Source of the DNA: Asterias amurensis | Taxonomy: Eukaryota > Echinodermata > Asteroidea > Forcipulatida > Asteriidae | Direction of reading: 5' to 3' | Assembly (NCBI RefSeq): GCF_032118995.1 | Contig: NC_092669.1 | Location: 6,323,501-6,387,500, forward strand | Length of the DNA stretch: 64,000 nt | Made by a program: the position numbers and the translations under genes | Notes under the pieces: generated by a model | Database searches by the model: none | The model's input: the letters and a program-made list of their open reading frames with translations, nothing else | Told to the model about the DNA's origin: nothing | Part shown: piece by piece, positions 4,223 to 56,000 of the stretch | How the letters are laid out: each line of letters opens with the position of its first letter | Position numbering within the stretch: the first letter of the stretch is position 1

Positions 4223-6033
4223 TCAGGAGGTTGATTTTGTACTGAATTCTGAAACTAATTGGAAGCCAGTGAAGATTGTGTAGGATGGGTGAGATATGAC
4301 AAGTAATCTTGCAGCGGCATTTTGGACTGATTGTAATCGAAGCAGTGTATTTTGAGGCAGTCCAGCAAGGAGACTGTTGCAGAAGTCGAGTCTGGTGGTA
4401 ATGAAGGCATGTATCAGCTGCTCTGCTGCATTCGTTGTAAGCAGGCGCCGGATTGCTGCAATCCTTCTAATGTGCATATAGGACACCTGGCAGGTGTCAG
4501 AGACATGTTTCTCAAGAGTCATGAATTGATCAAATGACACTCCAAGATTGCGGGCATCAGAGCTGGGTGGGACAATAGCATCGTCAACCTGCAAGTCTTG
4601 GATGTGTATCTTGTTTTTAAGCTGGGGAGACGATATGACAAGAAATTTGGTTTTGTCAGGATTCAACTTGAGGAAATTGGCCGACATCCAGTTCTGGATA
4701 TCGGTCAGGCAGTTGGCGAGTGACTCAAGCATCTTGGAGCTATCACCTGTGGTAGTGGGGCTGAATGAGGTGTCGTCTGCATAGAAGTGATATTGTAAGC
4801 CATGTTGGCGCGCTATGTGACCCAGGGGTGAAGTATATAGTGTGAACAGAATTGGACCGAGGACAGAGCCCTGTGGTACTCCATACGGAACCTTAGCTGG
4901 AATTGAAGACTCCCCTAGTATGCTATCAACTTGGAGGCGATCACTAAGGTAAGACTTAATCCATCTAAGAGCAGTGCATTGAATACCAAAACAGTTTCTT
5001 AATCTACAGAGAAGTATCTTATGGTCGATCGCAACGACTTTCTCATTGACCTTTGACACGAAAGACAGGTTCGAAATTGGGCGATAGTTTCTCATATCAT
5101 CAGGGTTAAGTGTCTGTTTTTTTATGACTGGTGTAACCAGGGCTGTCTTGAAGCGCTCAGGAAAACAAAATCCGGTGCTATGTTTGGGATCAGTGTGATG
5201 GGTCCTACAAGTTCGTCCAGGCTAGCCTTGACCATGGATGTGGGGAGGGGGTCCAGCAGGCAGGATTTTGGAGGGGAGGTCCGAATGATTTTGGCAATCT
5301 CAAGCTCTGATGACGGGGTAAATGAAGTAACCGAGAACTGAAGATTATCCGCGGTGTCTGAACCAGGTATGGAAGGATCGGGGCCATTTGGTCGTAGATC
5401 ATCTCTGATTCGTTGGATTTTGCTGGTGAAGTAGACGGAGAACCTATCAGCAAGCTCTTTGCGGGACACATGTGATGGGAGTTTTTGGGCTGGTTTTCTG
5501 TGCATGAGTCCATTGGTTATTTGAAAGAGCGCTCGTTGGTCACCTTGGCAGTCTCTGATCTGATCATGGTAGTAGTTGGACTTTGCTTCAGCAAATTTGT
5601 GTTTTACCACATTCCGCTGGGATTTGAAAATATCATGGTCAATCTTGAGCTTAGACTTGCGCCACTTTCTCTCCAATTGGCGGCGACGTTGCTTGGCGAG
5701 GGTGATCTGTATGGTGTACCATGGGACGGCTGGCCGATCAATAACATGACAAGTTTTCATGGGAGCGTGAGAATCCACCAGTTGAGTAAGGACAGAGTTA
5801 TACTGATCAATTAGGGCATCGAGTGCGATGGCGGGATGAGTGGTGATGGGCGAGGCAATGACGTCGTTCCTAAATTTGTCCAAGTCTATCGACCTAGTTT
5901 TGCGGTAGGAGATCAGTCTTTTGATGTATTTAGGTTTCTGTAGATTTAGTGAACAATGGACGGCGCAGTGGTCGGACACAAACTCAGACGATACCACTGA
6001 TTGTATAAGGCTGTCTGATCGGCGAGCGATCAC
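4223..6033 (-). pseudogene. LINE endonuclease C-terminus, linker and reverse transcriptase
   Basis: The first part (6033-5122) opens with ARRSDS and SDHCAVH, the end of the endonuclease domain, then a basic linker (KQRRRQLERKWRKS). The second part (5095-4223) has NYRPISNLSF, the GVPQGSVLGPILF block and YADDTS, the polymerase active site, followed by thumb motifs. Between NEKVVA and IDHKILL the usual block of about 80 residues (HSTETALL through the first catalytic Asp) is absent. This is an internal deletion that removes part of the palm. A frame change lies between 5122 and 5095. Confidence 0.85.
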
Positions 6034-6851
6034 AAAATCGATGATACATGGCCAGATGTGTGAGTTGCAAAGTCTACCATTTGTTGCATGTCGTATTGTT
6101 GGAGGAGTTTTTGGAAGTGATTTGTTTCAGCTGTGTTGTTGTCCAGGTGAATGTTGAAATCCCCGGTGATTATTAGAGTACCAGTGAAGAGCACCTGCTG
6201 ATCAAGTAGCTCTGTAAACTCTTCAATGAACATGCTGAATGGGATTCGGTGTCTTTGTGAAGGTGGCGGTCGGTAAAGGACGATAACCCGTAAGTGATGA
6301 TTGTTGTGGTTAATGTCCACAACAATGTCTTCGAAGGAAGTGTATGATTGCGTCTGGTTGCTACGTGGTTGCCTGGAAACTGACGCAGCAAGCCCGGATT
6401 TACACAGAAGGCCAATTCCACCTCCTCTTCTGCCTTTTCTGTGGGCGTGGATAAGGGTAAAACCTTTTGGGGTCACATTGGCGGTTTTTTGGTCACTGTC
6501 GGATACGAACCAGGTTTCAGTGAGTGCCATAATGTCAATGTCATGATCTTTAATATGGTCTTTGATGCATACAGTAGTAGTAGAAGATCTTACTTTCTGC
6601 TTACCAGCACGGCATCCCCTATGAACATGATTCCAATTGCCGATCCTGTTTTGTTTGAGGGATTTAAACACATCCATTGGTAGTGTCAGTTGTTGAGGAG
6701 ACATTTGAACTCCGATCGATTTCAGTTTGCTGCTGCTGTAGCGCAGTTTATGCTGCACTGGGTTACACATGGTTGACCACGGGGAACAGTGTACAATGTC
6801 TGTAAGTGCAAGCAATCTGTAGCACCACGCTGTGTATGACATGGTGGTCAC
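6030..6851 (-). pseudogene. LINE endonuclease segment
   Basis: The open segment of 273 codons has the AP-endonuclease hallmarks of CR1/L2-type LINEs: an ALTETW block, an RRGGGIGLLCK block, VIVLYRPP, and GDFNIHLD, which carries catalytic Asp and Asn. The frame is lost around 6040, just before the conserved SDHCAV block that continues in the next segment. The N-terminal ~70 residues may not be native coding. Confidence 0.85.
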
Positions 6852-6875
6852 TTCATGGCTTCATGGTGAAGTCCG

Positions 6876-7435
6876 AAAATTACAAGAAGATATACGATGA
6901 TCGTGAGTTCTCTCTTAACTCAAATTGATCAGTCTGGTCGTCAGTTTGATCAGGAGTACGAAACACGACTGCTGGTAGTATTTGCAATCCACAGAAAGTC
7001 ACAAAAGATGAAAAAACTGAGAATTTGCGGAGACCAAACCGCGGGGCGTGCCTGTCCTGGCGCTCACCACAATGAAAACTGATCGGGGGATAAGGTTAAA
7101 TTTAACTGTTTACTCGAGTAGTCTAGCCTCCAATCCCTTTGGGTGTACTGACCACGCCCACGATTAAGACAACATGTTTGTTGTACACTGTTCCTCAATT
7201 AATGCAAATACAAAAACAGATTGCGCCTTTGCTCAATGTGCGTCTACCATTTCCAACATTTTCGAAGTCAACTCCATTGTGAAAATTTTGACTCCCTATT
7301 TTTTTGTATGCAGCATTTTTAATGGAAATAGATACATGTAAATTTAAGATGTCGTGCTGTTTTTCTGTCTTACGGATAACCCCATCACAAATCTGATATC
7401 ACACTTGCACACCAAAACAGTTGTATAATACGGAT
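6876..7435. other. Intergenic stretch without a recognised feature
   Basis: About 560 bp between the LINE 5' end and a MITE fragment. I see no coding, no repeat unit and no RNA-like fold here. Confidence 0.5.
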
Positions 7436-32772: not shown

Positions 32773-32806
32773 GAAAGGAAATTTCCCTGAGCTTTACCAA
32801 TACTAT

Positions 32807-33574
32807 GAGGGGCCGTTTATGACTAAATGAGCAAACCCACATATATAAGAGCAAAACCATTATATAAGAGCAAACCCATATATATAAGAGCAAAACTTTT
32901 ATTGGCTGTTATTTTCCCGCTTCTTTCTTGATCCTTCCCTTAATCCCTTTCCCCCTCTCTTTTTCTATAAATGGATATGTATTTGTTTGTACTTGTTTTA
33001 TGCCTCTGAAGAAGGTCCGGATTGGATCGAAAGCTAAGGCCAATCTACCCTATTCATTATATAAGAGCAAAACCATATATATAAGAGCAAAACCATATAT
33101 ATAGGAGCAAAACCATATATATAGGAGCAAAACCATATATATAGGAACAAACCAGCAAAACCATATATATAAGAGCAAAACCATATATATAAGAGCAAAA
33201 CCATATATATATAGGAGCAAACAATTTATATAAAAGACAACCGAAAAAATATATTAAGATCAACGGCAAATATATAATCGATGCAAAAATAAATATAAAG
33301 GATCAAAAACTCAAATACAAAAGACAAACACAAATATATTTAACAGCTCCCTCTATATTGGACGTAGTTTCATATATATAAGACATGTGCACCCATATAT
33401 ATAAGACATGTAGTCTCATACACAGGACGTCAACAGTTGACCAAGGTTAAAATCGGGAACGAAAATCACCGAGCCGTAAATTCAGCCTTTGTCTGGCACT
33501 TGGTAATCATTGCGCCATTTCTCTGGGAATGGGAAAGGGAGAGGGGGACCGACACGTCGCGACGGCGTGACTTT
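32807..33574. repeat. Left inverted arm of element C
   Basis: The arm includes tandem words AGAGCAAAACCATATATATA (units of roughly 20-22 bp at 33060-33210). These are followed by decayed spacer words and the block ending GACACGTCGCGACGGCGTGAC. A Penelope-like 3' fragment (32900-33058) sits inside it. Confidence 0.8.
32900..33058 (+). mobile_element. Penelope-like family 2, 3' end fragment with hammerhead-like core
   Basis: The fragment is homologous to 42352-42510 on the other strand. Near its end it reads CTGAAGA-AGGTCCGGATTGGATC-GAAA. This has the two conserved hammerhead core strands (CUGANGA and GAAA) around a 5 bp stem II (GGTCC/GGATC). Such ribozyme cores are known at the ends of Penelope-like elements. 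Stems I and III could not be established. Confidence 0.65.
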
Positions 33575-35394
33575 AATTGTAATTAATTTGTTTAATATAA
33601 TCGAATGAGATTTTTGATTTATTTTGCACGATATACTAGCTTCTGAATATTCAATAAAATACCTGTTGATCCTGGCCATCACATTAGGGTTGTTTTTATA
33701 ATTTCCTGTGCCCTTACTGTTTTTCTTGCTTTGCTTTTGTACATGTACTTATATTATCTATTTGACATACTGTCTGCTTGTATTTGTAATTGTTTAGTAG
33801 GGTTTAATGCGTAACGCAGTAAACCGTTTAACACCAGGAAGTATGCATAATTATAGCGATTGGGATTGTCAGGGCGCATTCAGACGTGGTTCCATTGTTC
33901 TTTTCAACCAACCAAAGCAATGCATTTGGGGAAAGGGTGCTTGTATTTCTGGGAACCGTCATTGAATATTCTGCCACCGAGGAGTTAAGATAGATTGTAT
34001 AGTTTCGCAAAATTCGGTACCTTCTTGGCAACTCGCTGGAAGTGGGAACCGCATTGAAGAAATCCAAGTGATACCTGATGAGGAGGGCGAAGATGGGCGG
34101 CTACAGAGAGTGGTGAAGCCGATGGCTTACTAGCCGAGCCAATCGGGTGAGTCGCTACATTTTCAGACCTAATGCTGGGGCAAGTACAGCCCCAACAGTA
34201 ACGCTAGTAGGTAACACGAGTACCGTGAATACGGAAAGGTTTCAAACATCTAGTATGTATAAAGGGCCAATAATTGCGAACATCCCACAGATTAATAGTC
34301 AGGATATTTCACGGCCTTTACACGTAACTCTGGGTATAACGGGCCAACGTTCTCAAAGCACGAGTACAGGTACACAAGGACAAGAAAGGACGGACAATCA
34401 TAATTTTTCTGGCAGCTTGCCGTTTAATATGAAAGTTAGTCAGAGTTTGTGTCAGTCAGGCCAATCAGGAATAAGTAAGCCTAGTAGTTTAGTGTAAAAC
34501 TTGGCAAACTCTAGTCAATATTCAGGGTAGTCCATACATAACAGGGATGGGGCATGTAGTAGGTTAGGAGGGACATCATCTTCAATAGAACTGGGTGGTA
34601 CCCAACTTTCAAATGCAGGGTGCAAAATAAGTACAGTAGGGAGCAGTAGCATGTTGGGGTCCATTGATTGCACAGCGGGCTCTTGAAGCATACCGATGGC
34701 GGATAACATGCAGCATATGAATTAACCATCAACTCCCTTTAATCCATTGATATCGGTTTGTAGCGAATTGGGCGAGGGCCTACCGCTAACCTTAAAAGTT
34801 TTAAGATTATTCATAGCGAGTTTGTGGATTTCGCTGTGATCTTATAAAGCAGAGTGACCCTATAGTAGTACAAATAGCGGGCAAGACACAATAATTCTCG
34901 CTGGCTGTAAACGAGGGGGGGGGGGTTTATAATATGGAAAGATAATAAACACAGGCGTCCAATTACTTCTATACATTTTTTGACTTATGTAGCAGTGTAT
35001 TTGCGAGCTCATCTCCATAGAACACATAGAATTATTGAAATGTTGTCAGATCGTACGCACTGAGAGCAGCAGCTCGTCCAATAAGTGTGGATGGCGCACT
35101 TTTAGAATGAGGCAGCAATTAACACCAGTTAGATCATGGGCATAATTGACGATGAATTATGGGCATTGCACGTCACAGCACCATGTGTTAATCAAGCTCT
35201 AGAACAAAGTGTACATAAAGAATAGAAGGGCAATAGCAAGTTTCATTATGACCTTTCGGAATGATTGATCATTATTAGGCACTAAATGGCCAGCTTCCAT
35301 AAATCAAGGGGTAGCCTATTGCATAATATTAAAATTAAAGACCTTTGCATCTTCTTCCATTGGTACACACGTATCTGGTATTTCATATGTTTAA

Positions 35395-36060
35395 TGAATA
35401 GGGTATAGATGGCCTTAGCTTTCGATCCAAACCGGACCTAGTTCAGAGGCATAAAACAAGTACAAACAAATACATATCCATTCATAGAAAAAGAGAGGGG
35501 TAATGGATTAAATGAAGAAAGAAGCGGGAAAGAAAGAAGCGGGGAAAAACAGCCAATCAAAGTTTCTATTTCAGAAACACTTGGTGGCTATGAACCAATA
35601 CGAGTAAAGTGGCGAGGACAAAGGAGGTTTCATATGAAAGGATGGATTACTGGACCATAAAAGTGGTAAATGCATTGTTCGTTAACAATGCAGGGAAACA
35701 TGAACGGGTAGAGTTAGAAAACAAGTTGCATCATGATGCAATTAACAATGGTCAATTAATAGAGAAAAGCAAGATCAAAGGTACGATGGTATTAAAAATA
35801 GATATAAGGGACCTGTGGAAAAAAGAAGGGGGTTACTTACACGAGATAGTTATAGTAACAAATATATAGGACAACTTAAAAAAATTAATTTATACTTGAG
35901 TTACAGAATATAAACAACATTATAGTTCTCACGCAGAAGTGAAGTGGGGGTAACGGGAAGTTATTTAACACCAGTGTTTATGTTTAGTGCAAAGGGCTTG
36001 ACTGTCTTGAGTTGGTGAATCCAGTGTGATTCTCTATGCTTGCAGTTATATTTCATATGT
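35395..36060 (-). mobile_element. Penelope-like family 2, truncated copy
   Basis: Homologous to 42352-43040: the shared 3' end (AATAGGGTATAGATGGCC, TTAGCTTTCGATCC, GGACCT) is followed by AAAGTTTCTATTTCAGA, AGTGGCGAGGACAAAGGA, GTTGCATCATGATGCAA and TTATTTAACACCAGTGTTTA. Only the 3' non-coding part and the last bit of the coding region remain. It lies inside the core of element C. Confidence 0.75.
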
Positions 36061-37385
36061 TCATAAATTGCACACTTGGGAGGATCCCACGGGTAGTTTC
36101 ATTGTTTCTAAGATGAAAGAGGATTGAAGACGCTTGGACCCTCGGCAAGATTCAAAATGTTCCATTACACTTCCAGTGCTGAGCAGTCTGGTTAGTATTT
36201 TACCGCCAGTCTGCAAAATATTGAATTATTCGGTTTGGTCCTGGGGCGAATTAGAATAAATCTGCTTTATACTTGTTATGTATAAAGAGTTACACGGTTC
36301 TATGGTTCGGCGGGAACATTGAATAGGACTAGGTGCGGTACCCGGGGTAAGGCTTAGTTTTGTTAATTTAGTCTTTTCTTAGTCGTTATATAGTTTAAGT
36401 ATCATCGGTAACAGTAGCAGCTACCATAGCTTAGCAGGGAGGTCAGTACTAGCTTGAACCTGAAAGCGTTGATTTGCATAGATCAGGTGTACGTTTCCAA
36501 TATCGGTTGGTTTTTCGTATCTGGCGGTCAACACAGCACTGATGTTCCATGGCAATGACACGTTGTGTCGTAAAAATGTCGGTACAAAATGTAACGAACA
36601 ATGGAGGCGGGCTAAACCGTAAAGCTTACGTATATGAAAAACAAAGGCGCATGATTAAAAATTATCAGTTGATCCGGTTATTCAAGTTACATGGTGTAGT
36701 TATTGTCAGTGAAGACGAAAATTCGGTCGTTACAAAAAGTAACAAACATTGTAATGTGGGACTTAACAGAGTATGTACATGAGATGAGAAGACGCATGAT
36801 TAAAAATGATAGAGTGATCCGGTTATTCAAGTTACAGGGTGTAATTATTGGCAGTGAAGACAACAATTCGTAAAGTGGTTACAAAAAGTAACAAACATTA
36901 TAATGTTGGATTAAAATGTAACAGAGCATACACATGAAATGACAAGATGCATTACAGGGTGTAATTTTTACAGTGAAGACAAAAATGTTCGATGCAAACG
37001 TAGTAGAGTGTGAAGATGAAAAGAGAAGACGAATGATTAAAAAGGAATCAGTGCAGCATAGCTTGCATACATCTTCATCCGGGGAGATGGAAGTCTGGAG
37101 CACTTGAATCCTACATTAGGCCAGACTTAATGTTTTCAATTGTCTAAAAGGGGGTAGCTTGTAGCAAGGTCATAAACAAGCAGTGTAGACAACCGCTTCT
37201 TTAATTAGCATATTGCTGTTTAAGATAAATAATCATTTACAAGATTGGTGAATGTTGAGTTGGTTGTTAACAAATTGTGTACAACATTTTCAACTACATA
37301 CAAGACTTTGACAAGATAAAATATTGGTCAAAACAGATTACCCAGGCTGTTTTTCTTTGAATTTGTTTTTATACAGATGTTTATC

Positions 37386-38090
37386 GGGGACAGTATCATT
37401 CGCCACAGCAGCGGCATAGTGGTGGTACAGTGACATGGAAAGGCGTGTATGGGGCACGCCTGGACGGCTGGGACTAGGCTCAGGAGATACGGCAAAAGGC
37501 GAGGTCCCGACGACAATAGTGTTACATCTAAGAACCAAAGATATCTTGAAGGAAAATTCGGGACAGATAAGACATAGGGTAAAAGGGAGCCTAAAGATGT
37601 TCATCAATCCGATGCAAGAACGTGGGTACCGGGACAGTATCATTCGCCACAGCAGCGGCACGGTGGAGATACAGTGACATGGAAAGGCGTGTATGGGGCA
37701 CGCCTGGATGGCTGGGACTAGGCTCAGGAGATTCCTGGCAAAAGGCGAGGTCCCGACGACAATAGTGTTACATATAAGGACCAAAGATATCGTGAAGGAA
37801 AATTCGGGACAGATAAGACATAGGGTAACAGGGAGCCTAAAGATTTTCATCAATCCGAAGCAAGAACGTGGATACCGGGACAGTATAATCTGCCACAGCA
37901 GCAACACAGTGGTGGTACAAGTGACATGGAAAGACGTGTCTGGGGCACGCCTGGACGGCTGGTACTAGGCTCAGGAGATACCTGGCAAAAGGCGAGGTCC
38001 CGACGACAATAGTGTTACATATAAGGACCAAAGATATCTTGAAGGAAAATTCGGGACAGAGTAGACATAGGGTAAAGAGAGCCTAAAGGT
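37386..38090 (+). repeat. ~246 bp tandem triplication within the element C core
   Basis: GGGACAGTAT(C/A)AT recurs at 37386, 37631 and 37877 (spacing 245-246 bp). Each unit carries GGAAAGGCGTGTATGGGGCA, GGCGAGGTCCCGACGACA and GGAAAATTCGGGACAGA. The unit spans what appears to be a hydrolase-like (SGNH) coding segment, so the relic holds that segment almost three times. Confidence 0.9.
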
Positions 38091-38338
38091 AATTAGGAAC
38101 ATCCTACCCAACACACGGTTAATTTGGTCAGACATTTTGTTAAGGGCGAAGTATCAAGGTAAAGTTAAAGGAGGGCAGACAAACGCTGCACTTGGGATTT
38201 AAATATGTATGCAAAGAAGATACTTCGGGAGATGCAAAACGCACATGTTGTAAAACACCCCCATCTCATTAACCCTTCCCGGAAGGTGCGTACTGGCAAG
38301 ACATGATTCATTTGGTTCCATCAAAATTAATCAGACGG

Positions 38339-38339
<1 letters not shown>

Positions 38340-38391
<52 letters not shown>

Positions 38392-38393
38392 GG
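38340..38393. repeat. Long poly(A) run followed by poly(G)
   Basis: About 43 consecutive A are followed by ten G. This could be an old retroposition tail or an assembly-fragile homopolymer; no element was tied to it. Confidence 0.8.
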
Positions 38394-38574
38394 GTGTTTG
38401 GGCAAAGTTTTATATCAAAATTTGCTTTGGCGGTAAGTTTAGGTTGTTCTTATAAACAAGAAGCTAATAGGCATTATAGCCTGTGAGGAAGTGGTAAATT
38501 AATTTATGTGAATTTGATATGGATAAATATGGTGGTAATAAAATGATGTGATTGTATATAAAGAAGTAGATTAA

Positions 38575-38720
38575 TTTGGTAACTTCTTGGCAACTCGCTG
38601 GAAGTGGGAACCTCATTGACCCGGAGTTTTCTCCAGTCAATGAGTGCATTTATAATTATAATAATTGTAATTAGTCTGGTACCTTCTTTGGCAAATCGCC
38701 AAGAAGTGGGAACCTTTGCG
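38575..38720. repeat. Repeated GGTACCTTCTTGGCAA(C/A)TCGC word
   Basis: The phrase (G)GTA(A/C)CTTCTTGGCAACTCGC + AGTGGGAACC occurs at 38577-38612, again in variant form at 38678-38713, and at 34018-34053. All are inside element C, linking its two interior flanks. Confidence 0.6.
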
Positions 38721-39366
38721 GATTGGAAATTTACCGTTCGCAAAGTGAGTAATTGGGACCCTTTGCGAATTGGTCGCAAAGTGTATTATAATGGGAACTG
38801 GTATACTTCTTTATGAGTGGATATCACTGGATGGAATTAAATAAAGGGAAATCCCTTATATTATTATGAATTGGTGTTTTACCACGGAATTCAGAGTACG
38901 GAATAAATTAACTCTTGGCAGAGTTCACTACAACAACAAATCCCTGTGTCTGTGTATATTTATCAGGTGGCAATGGGCAAATAAAGAATAAGAATAAGAA
39001 TAAGAACCAATGAAAGTAATGAAAACATATGACGTCGCTCCAATGTCGTCCATACATTAGCAAAGTAAATGGCGGACTATCTCTCGTCTTCTTCCTTTAA
39101 AGTGCTGCTTCAGAAAATTTGAAGATTACCTCACAGCGTAAAACCAAAACTTTGAATATTTCGAAAAAGGTTGGACAGTTGATTTATAGTTTTTGATTGT
39201 GAACAATTTTCCTGTTATCCTAATTTGTTTTTACACTATAGTATCATGGAGATAGTATTGAAGAGAGGAATCGCTGTCGGTGTACGTGCAGCATGCACAC
39301 TGATCAGATCGGATCGTCTGCCCATTTCCAGCTAGCCCGGGTGCTAGCTATAGCGTCGGTCGTCAG

Positions 39367-39612
39367 TCACGCCGTCGCGACGTGTCGGTCCCCCTCTCCC
39401 TTTCCCATTTCCAGTGAAGCGTGCGCAATGATTACCAAGTGTCAGACAAAGGCTGAATTTACGGCTCAATGATTTTCGTTCCGATTTTAACCTTTGACGG
39501 CTGTTGACGTCCTTTGTATGAGACTTTATGTCTTATATATATGGGTGCACATGTCTTATATATATGAAACTACGTCCAATATAGAGCTGTTAAATATATT
39601 TGTGTTTGTCAT
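39367..39612. repeat. Right inverted arm of element C, inner segment
   Basis: Mirror of about 33340-33574: GTCACGCCGTCGCGACGTGT, TTGACGTCC, then GGGTGCACATGTCTTATATA and ACGTCCAATATAGAGCTGTT. The arm is interrupted at 39613 by a LINE and resumes at 41885. Confidence 0.85.
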
Positions 39613-39778
39613 TTATATTTGAGGTTTTTTTTTTTTTCCCTGGAGGGGGAAATTTATTCAAGTTTCTTCAATGTACAAAGCTACACAAACTACTGGTAAA
39701 ACCAACTACTTATAGAACGATACTAAGAGAGAAATGGCAAATTGCAAAAACAGGAAGTTTGATGATTATGCAAGGCAT

Positions 39779-41345
39779 TTAGTTGGTACATAGCAATACA
39801 AAAGGCTCCCATTTGGTATTGAACTTATCTAAGTTGTTATTCTTAACAAAGATCATTTTTTCCATTACAAAATAATGATTTATTTCCTTTTTGATAAGAA
39901 CAAATGAAGGCTTTCTGTCGTTCATCTTCATCCGATAAATATGAAAACGGCAAAGAATGAGAATTAAATTGAGAGCAGACCATTTTCTATTAAGGACACC
40001 AAACAGCTTAGTCGTGTTGTCAAAATTAATGTCAATGTTCAGTGTATTAGTCAACCAGTGTTTTATCTGACGCCAAAAATACAGAGACACCTTGCAATTA
40101 CAAAACAAGTGGACTAGTGTCTCTTCTTCCCTTTTACAAAAAGTACACAGATTAAAATTCTTCCGACCAATTTTAGAAAGAAAGGAATTTACACCCAAAA
40201 TTCTATGCACCAATCTAAACTGGAACCAACGTAACTTGGTGTCACATGTACAGTTAAAGGGTAAACCACAGAAAATGTGCCATTGAGGAATCGGAAAAAT
40301 CACGCCAATTTTTTCTTCCCATTTAACAATAAACTTGTGCACAACTTTTTTGCTGGAGGTGAAAACACTGTACAGACGGGTGGAGCCCTTTATATCCATC
40401 AACAAAGTCTCAAAATTAAATGGTAAAAAAGGGCGAGCAATTTCTGTGGTTTCTCCATTCAGTACATTACGGAAGGAATGTTTGATTGCATTGACCACGC
40501 CCCCGTACTCTAAAAAATTTGTTCTGACCCTGAATTTCCTTTGAAATGCCACAAGAGAAAGAGCCACACCTTGCGTGTCAAAAATGTCACACACGAAGTT
40601 CACACCCTTTTTGGCCCAGTGTTTATAGTTAATGTTTTTGTTACCGAACATAATATTCTGATTATGCCACAACACATTTTTCAAAGCGTCAATTTGACTG
40701 GCAGGTACGTGACACTTAACAAAGCTGCACCAAGCATTAAGAACATCAATCCAAAAATGGTTTTGATTTGCGGCCCCTTTTAAATAGATCAGCAATGCCT
40801 GGTGGCCTCCCTCGAGTGCTAGAGGATCATGAATGTTCGAAATCTTCAAAAAAAGAGTGACCCAACCCAAGTTATTTGAACTTAGAAATCTGCGGATCCA
40901 GGTGACCTTAAGGACTTTTATATACGAATGCATGTCAATCATTTTAACTCCTCCATGACTATAGCCTTGAATCATCTGGTTCCTGGACACACGGTCATTC
41001 CCTTTCCATATAAAGTTATAGAACATACAGTCTAATTCTTTGATAACATTGCTAGGCGGGTTGGGAAGAGTTAAAATAAGAAAAGTAAGCTTAGATAAAA
41101 GGAGCGACTTTGTTACAGTAACTCTCCCCAGCACCGTTAGGTTACGTTTAGACCACTGCTCAATTAAACTTTTAATAGCAGAAATGACCTTGGTGTAGTT
41201 CAAATTCACCATACTAGCAAGATTAGTGTTAAAGTCTATACCAAGGGCTCTGAAAGAGTTTTCAGCCAAAACCCAGTTGACTTTGATGTGCTCACAAATC
41301 CCTTTCTTACGCCCTTTGTTGCTACCAATCCAAACCGCATTAGTT
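39779..41345 (-). pseudogene. LINE ORF, C-terminal half (thumb to zinc-finger-like end)
   Basis: The open stretch of about 500 codons starts in the RT thumb (FRALGIDF, then GRVTVTKSLLLSKLTF, the L1/Tx1-type post-RT block). It carries the WKG and GG(V/L)KMID motifs, then FQFRLVHRILGVN, CTFCKREEETLVHLFCNC and FW, the cysteine motif typical of L1/Tx1-group LINEs. It ends at a TAA at the very 3' end, close to the poly(A). This portion looks intact. Confidence 0.85.
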
Positions 41346-41354
41346 TTCTTAGGG

Positions 41355-41870
41355 TTTTCTTAGTGGCCGGTATATTGGAGAAAACATTAGGCTGATGTAC
41401 GACCTGCTTAATTTTACAGAAAACAATAATATTCCCGGTATGTTTTTGTTAATTGATTTTGAAAAAGCCTTTGATTCAGTTTCACACAGTTTCATTTTGA
41501 AGGTTTTTGAACAATTTAATTTTGGCCCTTCCATTCAGAAATGGTTCAGTGTTTTTTATAGCGGGGCGAAAGCTTCCGTTCTTGTGAATGGTTCTCTTTC
41601 CGAATCTTTTAAGATTGGAAGAGGTTGTAGACAGGGTGACGGTTTGAGCCCCTACCTATTCCTTTTATGTGCAGAAGTGTTCGGAATGTTGATCCGAAAA
41701 GACTAAGTGCTTAAAGGCATAATGGTTAGCGGTTGTGAATTCAGACTTTCCCAGTATGCTGATGATACAGTTCTTTTTTTAGACGGCTCAGAAGGCTCCT
41801 TTGAAAAGTCCTTTGAAATACTTGCGGCCTTTGCTAGAATGTCTGGCTTAAAAGTCAACATTGACAAAAA
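41355..41870 (+). pseudogene. LINE reverse-transcriptase core, inverted segment
   Basis: On + the sequence reads GRYIGENIRLMYDLLNF, LLIDFEKAFDSV (first catalytic Asp), GCRQGDGLSPYLFLLCAE and, after a stop at 41704-41706, QYADDTVLF (catalytic Asp pair) then MSGLKVNIDK. Directly after that residue the protein would continue on the minus strand near 41345. It is oriented opposite to the rest of the element. Confidence 0.85.
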
Positions 41871-41884
41871 TATTTGAGGTTTTT

Positions 41885-42351
41885 GGTCCTTTATATATAT
41901 TTGCCGTTGATCCTCTATATATTTTCGGTGGTCTTCTGAATATTTGTTTTGATCATTTTACATTTATCATTTTGCTCTTAAATATATTGGTTTGCTCTTA
42001 TATGGGTTTGCTCTTATATATATGGGTTTGCTCCTTTATATATGGGTTTGCTCTTATATATATGGGTTTGCTCTTATATATGTGGGTTTGCTCTTATATA
42101 TATGGTTTTGCTCCTATATATATGGGTTTGCTCCTATATATATATATGGTTTTGCTCCTTTATATATAGTTTTGCTCTTATATATATGGTTTTGCTCTAA
42201 TATATATGGTTTTGCTCTTATATATATGGTTTTGCTCTTATATATATATATATGGGTTTGCTCTTATATATATGGGTTTGCTCCTATATCTATGGGTTTG
42301 CTCCTATGTATATATGGTTTTGCTCCTTTATATATAGTTTTGCTCCTATAA
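41885..42351. repeat. Right inverted arm of element C, GCTCTTATATATGGGTTTG array
   Basis: After about 110 bp of arm spacer come ~15 units of roughly 20-22 bp (GGGTTTGCTC(T/C)TATATATAT and GGTTTTGCTC variants), complementary to the left-arm array. The array resumes at 43590-43680 after the Penelope-like insertion. Confidence 0.85.
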
Positions 42352-43590
42352 TGAATAGGGTAGATGGCCTTAGCTTTCTATCCAATCCGGACCTTCTTCA
42401 GAGGCATAAAACAAGTACAAACAAATACATATCCATTTATAGAAAAAGAGAGGGGGAAAGGGATTAAGGAAAGGATCCAGAAAGAAGCGGGAAAATAACA
42501 GCCAATCAAAGTTTCTATTTCAGAGACAATATTGGTGGCTATGAACCAATAGGAGTGAAGTGGCGAGGACAAAGGATGTTTGGAATGAAAGGATGGGTTA
42601 CTGGACCATAAAAGTGGTAAATGTATTATTCGACAACAATGCAGGGAGACATGAAAGGGTAGGATTAGAGAGCAAGTTGCATCATGATGCAACTAACAAT
42701 GGTCAATTAATAAGAATAGCAAGATCAAAGGTATGATGATTTTAAAAATAGGTACGAGGGACCTGTGGAAAAAGGGGGGGGGGTACTTACATCAGATAGT
42801 TACAGTGATGAATTTATAAAAACAACTTTAAACAAGATTAAATTATACTTTATGTACAGAATATATATAACACATAAGTTAATAGGCCGAAGTGAAGTGG
42901 AGGGTAATGAGAAGTTATTTAACACCAGTGTTTATGTTAAGTCCAAAGGGTTTGACCAGTCCTTACTCTATGGTTTGACTGTCTTGAGTTGGTGAATCCA
43001 GGTGAGTGTGATTCTCTACTCTTGCGGTGTGTGTCATCACCATTGCAAGCTTCAATCACCAGAAGTTCAACATCACTGACACTATGATTGGGGCTGTTGA
43101 AGTGGATAGAGACTGGGTACGGTTTCTTAGTCTTTATGGAAGAGACATGATTAGCAAAGCAAAGACTAAGTTTGGTCTTAGTCTCTCCCACATATTGTAG
43201 CCCACATCTCTTACATGATATGACATAGACTACATTAGACGTGCTACATTCAGAGTCGGTCTTGATGTTGTATGAAGAGCCAGTGGTATGACTCTCCACC
43301 TTAAGTCAGGGCTTAATGTGCAGACACGTTCTGCATTTGGAACGGGTACATTTGTGACAGCCCAGTATATCTGTCGGGGGTTGTGTTTGGACTGTACCTG
43401 GGGGAAGTTTGGCCCTGACTAGTATGTCACCAAGGTTCTTAGGGCGGCGGAATGCAACCATGGGAACCTTAGGGATTGCTGAGTGTAACCTGCTGGAGGA
43501 GTGAAGTATAGGCATGTTATTATTGAGAATTGAGGGAAGTTTGGGTAGTTTGGGGTGGAAGGTGGTGACCAAAGCAACTCTATTGGTCGG
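42352..43590 (-). mobile_element. Penelope-like family 2, 5'-truncated copy with GIY-YIG endonuclease
   Basis: The copy is on the minus strand. The coding end carries FHPKLPKLPSILN, FRRPKNLGDILVRAK, CTRSKCRTC and the GIY-YIG block VVYVISCKRCGLQYVGET (about 43.57-43.15 kb). A 3' region of about 600 bp follows, ending in the hammerhead-like sequence near 42.36-42.41 kb. RT is absent, so the copy is 5'-truncated, and the remaining coding has about two breaks. It splits the right arm of element C. Confidence 0.8.
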
Positions 43591-43697
43591 AGCTTTTGCT
43601 CTTATATATATGGTTTTGCTCTTATATATGTGGGTTTGCTCTTATGGTTTTGCTCTTATATATATGGGTTTGCTCATTTAGTCATAAACGGCCCCTC
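43591..43697. repeat. Right inverted arm of element C, outermost part
   Basis: Four units of GCTCTTATATATATGG(G/T)TTT, then GCTCATTTAGTCATAAACGG and CCCCTC, the mirror of 32807-32890. Confidence 0.85.
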
Positions 43698-43704
43698 ATA
43701 CTAT

Positions 43705-44122
43705 ACATCTAAAACCGTATTAGTGACCTCATTGTGCACGAGTCATATTTATTTGAGAGGAGGAAGGAATTATACATTTTGGCGTCCACGGAGCATAGAG
43801 TAAGTTTGCTTGATGACCACCTTGTTTGAACAACCGACAACTGAAGATATTTCATTATTTTTACGTTTTGAACTTGCTTTATCGATACGTGACGGTAACT
43901 GTTTCCCAATTGGGATTAAGAAGGTAAAGAATTACTTATATATTTTGTTGTTGATTAAATTATTTTTTAATTAAGTGCATACCTCGAATGATTGAAGATG
44001 TGCGCACTGCGTGTGTGCATTAATTGGATGGCTTGAAACAACATGAATATTTTGTCAGATGCAGTTAGAGGTATGTAAGGTCGCGCGTATAGCTGCAGAT
44101 GAGATTACTTCAGCCGGGGTTC
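43705..44122. other. Intergenic stretch without recognised features
   Basis: About 420 bp between element C and a MITE. No coding or repeat was recognised. Confidence 0.45.
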
Positions 44123-53017: not shown

Positions 53018-56000
53018 TTACACATAGTCTTTGAACCGAATCGGAGCATGTTTGTCGCGAGAGGGTCTATTTGAGTTCGCTGATGGGGCTTGTTCTTGTT
53101 CAACTGATGGCGTACGTGTAGGTTCCTCCTTTCCCACGAATTTCTTGCAATGGGAGACGTTGCGAGTTACAACATGGTGGTCATGTTGAGCAGTGATCAT
53201 TGGGCCCTTTTTATCAGTGACCGTATAAGGGCGAGGGTGGTAGGGAGGGGTTGTTTTGCGGAGCGTGTGAAAGTTTTTGACGAGAACAGTGTCACCAACA
53301 GCAATAGTCGATGGTATTGTGTGACGGCGTTTGTCAGCATATTGTTTCATTTTCTGCTTTGCTAACTCATCCCGTTGGCGAAAGTTGAGCTGTTGGTCGT
53401 GAGAAGAGTTGTGTATCTGCGGAATCAGTGTGTTGATGTTGCGGCCGAAGCGTGCAGCCGCCGGAGCAGTGCCTGTGCTGCAGTGCGGGGTTGAGCGATA
53501 TGCACGGAGAAATGTCCAAAGTTCTTGTTTCCATGGCTTACCTTCTGCCTCAGCACAGCGCACAGCTTTTTTTAGCGTTTTCATGAAATTTTCTGCCTGC
53601 CCATTTGCCTCAGGCCAGTGTGGAGTTATTTTGCGGTGGCGAAAACCAAGATATTCGGAGAAGGTTTTGAATTCTGCGCTGTTGAATGGGGGTCCATTAT
53701 CGGTTTTCACGACTTCGGGAATGCCATGTGATGCAAAGATTTTGTCAAGGATGGGAATCGTAGCGCGAGCTGATGTTGAGCGTAAGATTTCAACACATGG
53801 GAATCTGGAGTAATCATCTATGCACACAAGAAGGTAGTCTCCGGAGATGAATGGTCCACAGAAATCAACACTGACGTTTTGCCATGGATATGCGGGAAGC
53901 TCCGTCATTGACAAGGGTTCGCGTTTGTGCTCTCGAGTGGAAGATTGGCATGCGAGACAGTGCTTAACAAGTTCTTCAACTTTCTGATCAATATTTGGGA
54001 ACCACACCTTCTCACGGAGTAGCGACTTTGTTTTTGATATTCCCTGGTGACCAGAGTGGGCAAGACTGAGAACACGCTGTTGCAGAGTGGAGGGGATGAC
54101 GATACGTTGCTCGCGCAATATTATTCCGGAGTCTGTCACTGTGATGTTCTCGCGAACAGCCCATATGGCGGGGTAGCTTTCTTTGAGTTTGAACCATTGT
54201 CCAGCGCGATATGCTTGGATGGAGGATTGGAGTGATAGATCTTTGGCAGTTTCTTGACGGATTTCTTCAAGGGTTATTGCTTTGGGGGTGGAGTGGTGTG
54301 CGATCAGGTTGACAAACTCCTCAGTTTCTACAGAGAGGTTGTTGGATTCAGAGTTTGCGATAGGATGTCTTGACATGTAATCCGCTGGATTGTCCTTCCC
54401 AGCACAGTGAATAACGGACATGTCATACGACTGGAGTTTTAACAGCCAGTTTTGTATCCTTGGAGATGTATTTGCCTGTGGCTTTGTGAATATTGGTACA
54501 AGTGGTTTATGATCGGTGACGATTGTGAATTTTTGTCCAAATACATACATGTGGAAGCGAGTAACACCCCAAGCTATGCCTAGTGCCTCTCTTTCGATTT
54601 GGCTATATCGTTGTTCAGTTGGAGTGAGCGCACGACTTGCATAACTCACCACTTTACTTTGTCCGTGTTTGTTTGTTTGTGTGAGCATTGCGCCAAGACC
54701 AACCGGACTAGCATCAACCCATATTGCAGTATCTTTAGTTGGGTCAAAGTATGCACCGACTGCTTCCTGTGAGAGTGATTCTTTAAGCAGTTGAAGAGCA
54801 TTGCGGTGTGTTGCATTCCATTCGAATTTTGTGTTTTTCTCTGTCAGCACTCGAAGGGGTTCAGTTATGGTTGACAGGTTTGGTATGAAGCGCGAACTAT
54901 AGCTTGCCATACCGAGTAGGCTGCGGACCTCAGCCGGGCTTTGTGGGTCACTGGCGTTTTTGATAGCATCAACCTTTGCGGGGTCCGGGGAGACACCTTT
55001 GCCGCTGAAGACGAGCCCAAAGAAGTGAATACGTGGCTGAGCGAACTGACACTTCTCGTTGTTAACAGTTAGGCCCTTTAGTTGTAAACGCTCCAGAAGC
55101 AGGTGGAGCCGTTTGTTATGTTCCTCGACGGTAGGGGCATGGATAAGAATGTTGTCTGAGACATTGAGTACACCTTGTATACCTTCGATGGTTTGCCGAA
55201 TTGTGTTTTGGAAGACTTCACTAGCGGATGAAATGCCAAAGTTTAGTCTTTTGTATCGCTTGAGTCCAACATGTGTAGCAAATGTAGTTATATACCGACT
55301 TTCGGGTGATAGTTCAAGCTGATGGTATCCTGAGCGGAGATCCAATTTTGAGAATACTCGTGATCCATTGAGTTCAGCGATAAGCTCATCCATAGTTGGT
55401 GTTGGGTGGCGTTCGCGAATTATTGCTTTGTTTGCAGCTCTCATATCTACACACAAGCGTATGCTGTCAGGGCTGTGTGGTTTTGGGACTGCGATTATAG
55501 GGGATACCCATGGAGTGGGACCAACTGCATCCTCGATGATGTCTTGGTCTTCAAGTTCTTTCAGTTGTTTTTCAATTTGTTTTCTCAGGTGGAAAGGGGC
55601 TTTGCGATGTCTTTGAGCGACAGGGGGTACAGATTCATTGATGTGGAGTTGTACCTGGACTCCTGCTAGTTTGCCAATGCGTGGAGCAAACAAGTTTGGG
55701 TAGGAAGTGGCAAAGTCATTATTGTTATGATCAGTGATGTTGTTAACCGGATCATTGATGGTAATAAGACCTAAATCTTGGGCTGTTTGGAGGCCAAGGA
55801 GACATCCAGCTTGGTTGTCAACAACAAAAACGTCGGTTGTTATGAAGTGGTTTCCTGTTTCAAGGAGTGCTGTAAACCTACCAAGTATGGGCAGTGGCTC
55901 TTTCACGCCGTATGGATAGAGGCGTATGTGTGTTTTCCTGAGAGTTAGTGACTTGTGGCGTGAGATACGACTGAATGTGGATTTGTCGATGAGGTTGCGG

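Follow-up and report, generated by a model that had tools for sequence, protein, structure and literature searches.

How can an element with the marks of a DIRS retroelement be bounded by a target duplication? The question is raised by a 10.9-kb inverted-repeat element in a 64,000-nucleotide stretch of the Asterias amurensis genome (contig NC_092669.1; C22:6323501-6387500), which is hereafter called the window; the genome comprises 491.5 Mb in 23 contigs. The original prediction, made from the letters of the window, described exact mirrored ends, identical ATACTAT flanks taken as a 7-bp duplication, arms of ~770 bp before later insertions, and DIRS/SGNH-like coding traces in the core. It offered two origins: a DIRS-like relic captured in a terminal inverted repeat (TIR) transposon, or an undescribed DIRS-related lineage with minisatellite-bearing arms. 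The apparent contradiction dissolves into a stack of ordinary insertions, several of which have an empty site or a relative elsewhere in the genome, and no new element class is needed to explain the element. It is probably a non-autonomous TIR DNA transposon, most likely of the IS3EU/GingerRoot type with a 6-bp duplication, that has received a Ngaro-like retroelement, a long interspersed nuclear element (LINE) and Penelope-like inserts.

The mirrored ends are as first described: GAGGGGCCGTTTATGAC is present at 32807-32823 (+) and 43681-43697 (-), with no further match in the window at up to three mismatches (chance mean 0.07). Genome-wide, the exact 17-bp end occurs 48 times and its reversed control not once. 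TAT directly precedes the 17-mer in all 48 exact copies, reading TATGAGGGGCCGTTTATGAC, and a degenerate search agrees (48/48). Because TAT and ATA across an inverted repeat cannot be a direct duplication, these letters are part of the termini. The true ends are therefore TATGAGGGG...CCCCTCATA (the family end in shortened form: TATGAGGGGCC), beginning 3 bp outward of the 32807..43697 extent given before, and the element occupies 32804-43700, or 10,897 bp:

32804..32828, + strand: left terminus, 25 bp, TATGAGGGGCCGTTTATGAC..., with TAT as in 48/48 exact copies; same as the right end.
43676..43700, - strand: right terminus, ...GTCATAAACGGCCCCTCATA, placed from genome copies of the end; same as the left end.

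The family sample consists of the window and 31 further loci (numbered with L), which together contain all 48 exact termini. Facing pairs of termini are present at 13 of the 32 loci. The mirrored element is thus real, mobile and nested, and belongs to a small dispersed family that shares its termini and varies in its flanks.

The boundary and length of the target duplication were evaluated in 10 independent paired copies against shuffled pairings (2000 shuffles). L018, L020, L024 and L036 have common flanks and were taken as one insertion inside a larger repeat, with L036 alone retained. A 6-bp direct repeat outside TAT..ATA has an identity of 0.83, compared to 0.30 in shuffled pairings, a value that none of the 2000 shuffles matched. 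Only two further settings stand out from chance (length 8 at offset 1, length 10 at offset 2); both of them include these 6 bp. Lengths of 7 to 10 at the TAT boundary are at chance level. The boundary and 7-bp length proposed earlier also perform as chance (0.39 versus 0.40 shuffled). The ATACTAT letters are indeed present at both ends, parsed as ATAC+TAT at the left end and ATA+CTAT at the right end, with three of them belonging to the termini. The duplication is exact in five pairs (L015, L022, L026, L028, L038), has one mismatch in three (L023, L033 and the window) and, by eye, differs by one base in length in L036. The target duplication of the family is 6 bp; the expectation of a mobile unit with shared termini and variable flanks holds, at this length instead of 7 bp. 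In the window, the duplications are:

32798..32803, no strand: left target-site duplication CAATAC, 5/6 identical to the right one; boundary and length from the 10 pairs.
43701..43706, no strand: right target-site duplication CTATAC; boundary and length from the 10 pairs.

Two loci carry the terminus doubled in tandem at one end with a spacing of 25-26 bp (L031:2539-2564 and L038:3211-3237), and in L038 the outer copy bears an exact 6-bp duplication, TGCAGC. Separately, L018, L020, L024, L036 and also L035 (on C7, C8, C9, C16 and C15) share at least 1 kb of flank around the TIR element, which therefore rides inside a larger dispersed repeat at these loci.

The architecture of the family is best read in L033, a well-kept copy of 1848 bp in which two arms (611 and 605 bp, with an inverted identity of 86.5%) enclose about 630 bp of interior. 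Without inserts, the unit is about 1.85 kb, and the 13 paired copies range from 201 bp to 10.9 kb. Each arm opens with the 25-bp end, continues into a 20-bp AT-rich minisatellite whose unit number differs between arms and between copies, and includes some 270 bp of further arm sequence, a foldback-like organisation. The window arms are inverted repeats of each other, with 97% complementarity between 32893-33042 and 42365-42514 and 93% between 33351-33456 and 39481-39586; the left arm has about the ~770 bp first estimated. The host element is laid out as follows:

32804..33572, + strand: left arm (long TIR), containing the 20-bp AT-rich minisatellite and a Penelope fragment; from inverted and tandem repeats and L033 homology.
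33573..33796, + strand: left part of the short-element interior, ending in a LINE-like 3' tail; 96% to L033, uninterrupted in 9/9 other copies.
38972..39364, + strand: right part of the short-element interior; 93% to L033.
39365..43700, - strand: right arm (long TIR), enlarged by LINE and Penelope insertions; from inverted repeats and L033 homology.

A sister family has the terminus TATGGGGCGCCGTTTATGAC (TATGGGGCGCC...) in 16 exact genome copies, its termini reading TATGGGGCG in all 16. By eye, an AT-rich array of ~20-bp units of another sequence stands behind the sister end in seven of the eight loci returned, L047 having none. Two of the three facing sister pairs show exact 6-bp duplications: GTATTC in L050 (744 bp) and CATGTG at C3:28465901-28470578 (4.7 kb). 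At L011/L048 (C3:27343935-27344028), a sister terminus is found 74 bp inward of a TATGAGGGG terminus, an arrangement that suggests nesting of the two families. The TIR family may already be catalogued in Repbase.

These ends point to a superfamily. In PMC10045372, TA..TA termini are described as constant in complete IS3EU families and 6-bp duplications as usual, GingerRoot being similar; the fungal IS3EU ends given in PMC12730594 are TAYGG..CCRTA. The present families resemble them in their TA..TA termini (48/48 exact TATGAGGGG copies and the 16 sister copies), in the 6-bp duplication of the window family and of two sister pairs, and in the sister terminus, which starts TATGGGG. They differ in that no transposase was found in the present family and in the arms of about 600 bp, which are largely 20-bp minisatellite.

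Long inverted repeats would also suit a non-autonomous Polinton/Maverick; against it, Polinton ends typically begin AG. Polinton, too, makes 6-bp duplications according to PMC10045372, but the same account gives TA..TA ends as the signature of IS3EU/GingerRoot, and no Polinton gene was recognised in 53 open reading frames scanned with Pfam at the 31 other family loci; an origin from Polinton/Maverick, or from another 6-bp-duplicating family that is not IS3EU, is unlikely. The architecture itself recalls foldback elements, either of the Mutator-like (MULE) type or Galileo-like members of the P superfamily: Tetris of Drosophila virilis, which is non-autonomous (PMC4079207), and Galileo (PMC4168063) are described with tandem repeats in long inverted repeats around a variable middle, and the 7 bp of the original prediction would have suited Galileo. 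The duplications reported in those accounts are 8-10 bp for Tetris and mostly 7 bp for Galileo, compared to the 6 bp found here. With lengths of 7 to 10 at chance, neither the 7-bp (or 8-bp) duplication of Galileo and the P superfamily nor the 8-10-bp duplication of MULE foldbacks is seen, and membership in either group is improbable.

The core at 33797-38971 belongs to another layer. The interior site is uninterrupted (TTGTTTAATGGCCAAATAAAG) in all nine other family copies that keep it, the 5,175-bp insert being confined to the window; at least four of the nine (L020, L024, L035, L036) have common flanks, so the independent witnesses number fewer than nine. A peptide from the 246-bp tandem repeat of the core has 195 genome matches, several per copy owing to the tandem repeat. 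Among the first 50 listed, only the window match has a family terminus within 15 kb, the next nearest being on C18 at 17.4 kb. One relative, C7:20357500-20365400, aligns collinearly with the core at 92-97%, save for about 460 bp present only in C7. It displays the order A1 (603-850), B1 (5968-6512), A2 (6510-6757), B2 (6854-7398), with A1 and A2 (248 bp) and B1 and B2 (545 bp) each 100% identical; the window core has A...B, without A2 or B2:

33797..38971, + strand: Ngaro-like (DIRS-order) non-autonomous retroelement, a relic in A...B form; absent from 9/9 other copies, collinear with the C7 copy.
33797..34015, + strand: A repeat of the split direct repeats; matches C7 603-850 and 6510-6757, which are mutually identical over 248 bp.
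37387..38088, + strand: 246-bp tandem repeat, 2.9 copies; SGNH-like by eye only, no Pfam match.
38430..38973, + strand: B repeat of the split direct repeats; 97% to C7 6854-7398 (B2), identical to B1 5968-6512 over 545 bp.

The core is a separate repeated element, and the structure of this one fully read relative marks it as a relic of the DIRS order; this identity is drawn from the C7 copy's split direct repeats and not from coding traces. Ngaro-like elements are not known to make a target duplication, and the core junctions in the window and in C7 likewise show none, only TAA/TAAT recurring. The window junctions TTTAGTAGGG and GGTGGCAATGGG, the empty site TTTAATGGCC and the C7 B1/A2 junction GGTGGTAATAGGG are consistent with recombination at TAA/TAAT and a small number of later substitutions. 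Split direct repeats are described for Ngaro-like elements in PMC9210276, together with an SGNH hydrolase reading frame in the amphibian ones. The A...B-only form may reflect either integration of a single-unit circle or later recombination between B1 and B2. Near another family terminus, at L019:4281-5541, DIRS reverse transcriptase-like open frames are seen by eye, with no Pfam match naming a reverse transcriptase in the scanned frames.

The absence of a long target duplication at the junction would also suit the opposite polarity, in which the 5.2-kb core was there from the start and the short copies arose by deletion. The short copies, however, continue unbroken across a LINE-like 3' tail (AATGGCCAAATAAAG), a tail resembling it is present outside a family element in L034, and the core recurs elsewhere without arms and with split direct repeats of its own in the relative, so this polarity is very improbable. 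The second origin first offered, in which the minisatellite arms are the inverted terminal repeats of an undescribed DIRS-related lineage with a 7-bp duplication, draws on the co-occurrence of core and arms in the window and on the inverted terminal repeats described for DIRS elements (PMC9210276), but is scarcely credible given arms without core in 9/9 other copies keeping the interior site, core without arms among those first 50 peptide matches, split repeats that are direct and not inverted in the C7 relative, and a 7-bp length at chance. The core has no inverted repeat of its own (none at E 1) and differs in this from DIRS-like elements sensu stricto, whose inverted terminal repeats go with an internal complementary region, the mirrored arms being those of the host element. 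Capture of a DIRS-like relic in a TIR transposon, the first origin offered, is supported by a family that exists without the core, a core that exists without TIRs and Ngaro-type repeats in the relative.

The LINE and Penelope insertions proposed earlier are both confirmed in the right arm, and further Penelope-like pieces are present in the left arm and the core:

32885..33053, + strand: Penelope-like fragment in the left arm, mirrored in the right arm; 97% complementarity, minisatellite junction, outer edge by eye.
35392..36048, - strand: Penelope-like fragment inside the core, with a 13-bp duplication TATTTCATATGTT at 35379-35391 and 36049-36061.
39626..41869, no strand: LINE insertion with its 5' part inverted (zf-RVT part -, reverse transcriptase part +) and the duplication ATATTTGAGG(T5); from Pfam and the L033 empty site, with edges inexact owing to a T run.
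42351..43593, - strand: 5'-truncated Penelope-like element with GIY-YIG, inside the right-arm minisatellite; from PF01541 and junctions.

The LINE is recognised by PF00078 (E=2.8e-14) and PF13966 (E=5.2e-7), and its empty site is preserved in L033. PF01541 (GIY-YIG) is below the cut-off in the window (E=0.003) and reaches 8.1e-08 in L025, beside another family terminus. The Penelope insertion of the core and its 13-bp duplication also occur in the C7 copy; this piece was therefore already part of the core family before it reached the window. In a scan of the window and loci L009 to L059, minus five duplicates, eight Penelope 3' ends were found. In five of them (L025, L029, L039 and both arms of the window) the junction with the 20-bp array falls at nearly one phase; two join sister arrays (L050, L052) and one lies in the core. 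Known Penelope-like elements with GIY-YIG share the domain and the 5'-truncated copies; what differs here is that several end in an arm minisatellite at nearly the same phase, which may result from one inherited insertion or from repeated targeting of the array.

Several observations weigh against the reading of a TIR transposon of IS3EU type with a Ngaro-like insert. The original prediction had named the lack of other copies, or arms occurring singly, as evidence against a mobile unit. This applies in part only: 48 termini exist, and at 19 of the 32 loci all termini within about 3 kb point the same way. Among the 10 pairs, L031 is without a duplication, and that of the window is imperfect (CAATAC/CTATAC, 5/6 identical); the sister pair at C3:27333120-27343954, 10.8 kb apart with Gypsy inside, matches at 1/6 only. 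No DDE domain was detected by Pfam in any of the 53 open frames of at least 130 amino acids (aa) at the 31 other family loci, shorter or broken frames being left out. In a genome search for the integrase domain rve, in which 150 of 301 candidates were scored, three matches lie within 15 kb of any of 68 termini, only two of them inward of a terminus and both of these taken as Gypsy. Finally, the core has no Pfam reverse transcriptase, tyrosine recombinase or SGNH domain in all 16 stop-to-stop frames of at least 70 aa, the only two matches (E 0.15 and 0.18) being at chance level and below the cut-off. The DIRS/SGNH-like coding traces first described are not borne out by Pfam, SGNH resting on inspection by eye, and the core differs from known Ngaro-like elements in its A...B form and in that no reverse transcriptase, RNase H or tyrosine recombinase was recognised; with no such Pfam domain, it is therefore non-autonomous at best.

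Because the defining transposase gene was found neither in these frames nor among the scored rve matches, IS3EU/GingerRoot membership of the family is graded as likely, a candidate assignment. Two rve matches were considered as the family transposase and set aside: one on C3 between two sister termini, which reads as Gypsy by eye, and one on C4 in a 1354-aa frame, taken for Gypsy from length only. The third lies outside the window element, at about 53.6 kb; the domain, at window 53618-53872 (C22:6377118-6377372, -), sits in a 1314-aa open frame that probably belongs to a long terminal repeat retroelement. Five rve loci (L040-L044) had no TA..TA ends with exact 6-bp repeats in the 3.3 kb examined, and the sister element C3:28465901-28470578 (L057, L058, L049) showed no recognisable transposase in a Pfam scan of two open frames only. 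What Pfam did match among the 53 frames was RVT_1, below the cut-off, and GIY-YIG in L025, 7tm_1 in L034, RNase_PH (a host gene) and weak chance-level hits. The 7tm_1 match (E=3.7e-25) lies in a 360-aa open frame at L034:4070-5149, about 1 kb from a family terminus. Rfam at gathering thresholds returned two tRNAs only, both outside the element.

The stack was probably assembled as follows. The 25-bp end is presumably the transposase recognition site, with the variable 20-bp AT-rich array behind it. The transposon would have been moved in a cut-and-paste manner by a DDD/E transposase supplied from elsewhere, most likely of IS3EU/GingerRoot type, leaving the 6-bp duplication. A Ngaro-like, non-autonomous retroelement of the tyrosine-recombinase kind entered the interior and left no target duplication, probably because a circle recombined there at a TAA/TAAT match. 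A LINE entered the right arm, and Penelope-like elements lie in the minisatellite arms. More tentatively, an IS3EU-type lineage may have evolved the foldback architecture independently, giving two sister families with different ends, each followed immediately by its own ~20-bp AT-rich minisatellite; the arrays would perhaps offer the transposase additional binding or bend sites, and Penelope-like elements would in turn land in them.

What was posed as a DIRS element with a target duplication is thereby reduced to known kinds of insertion, and the remaining interest lies in a probable IS3EU lineage with foldback-like minisatellite arms and in an accessible Ngaro-like family. If the IS3EU assignment is true, such arms would be documented for a further superfamily beyond Mutator and P, and the two sister families would allow a direct comparison of array function. 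The repeated family of the core, with A1 identical to A2 and B1 to B2 in the copy read, would be a good system for the integration of tyrosine-recombinase retroelements.

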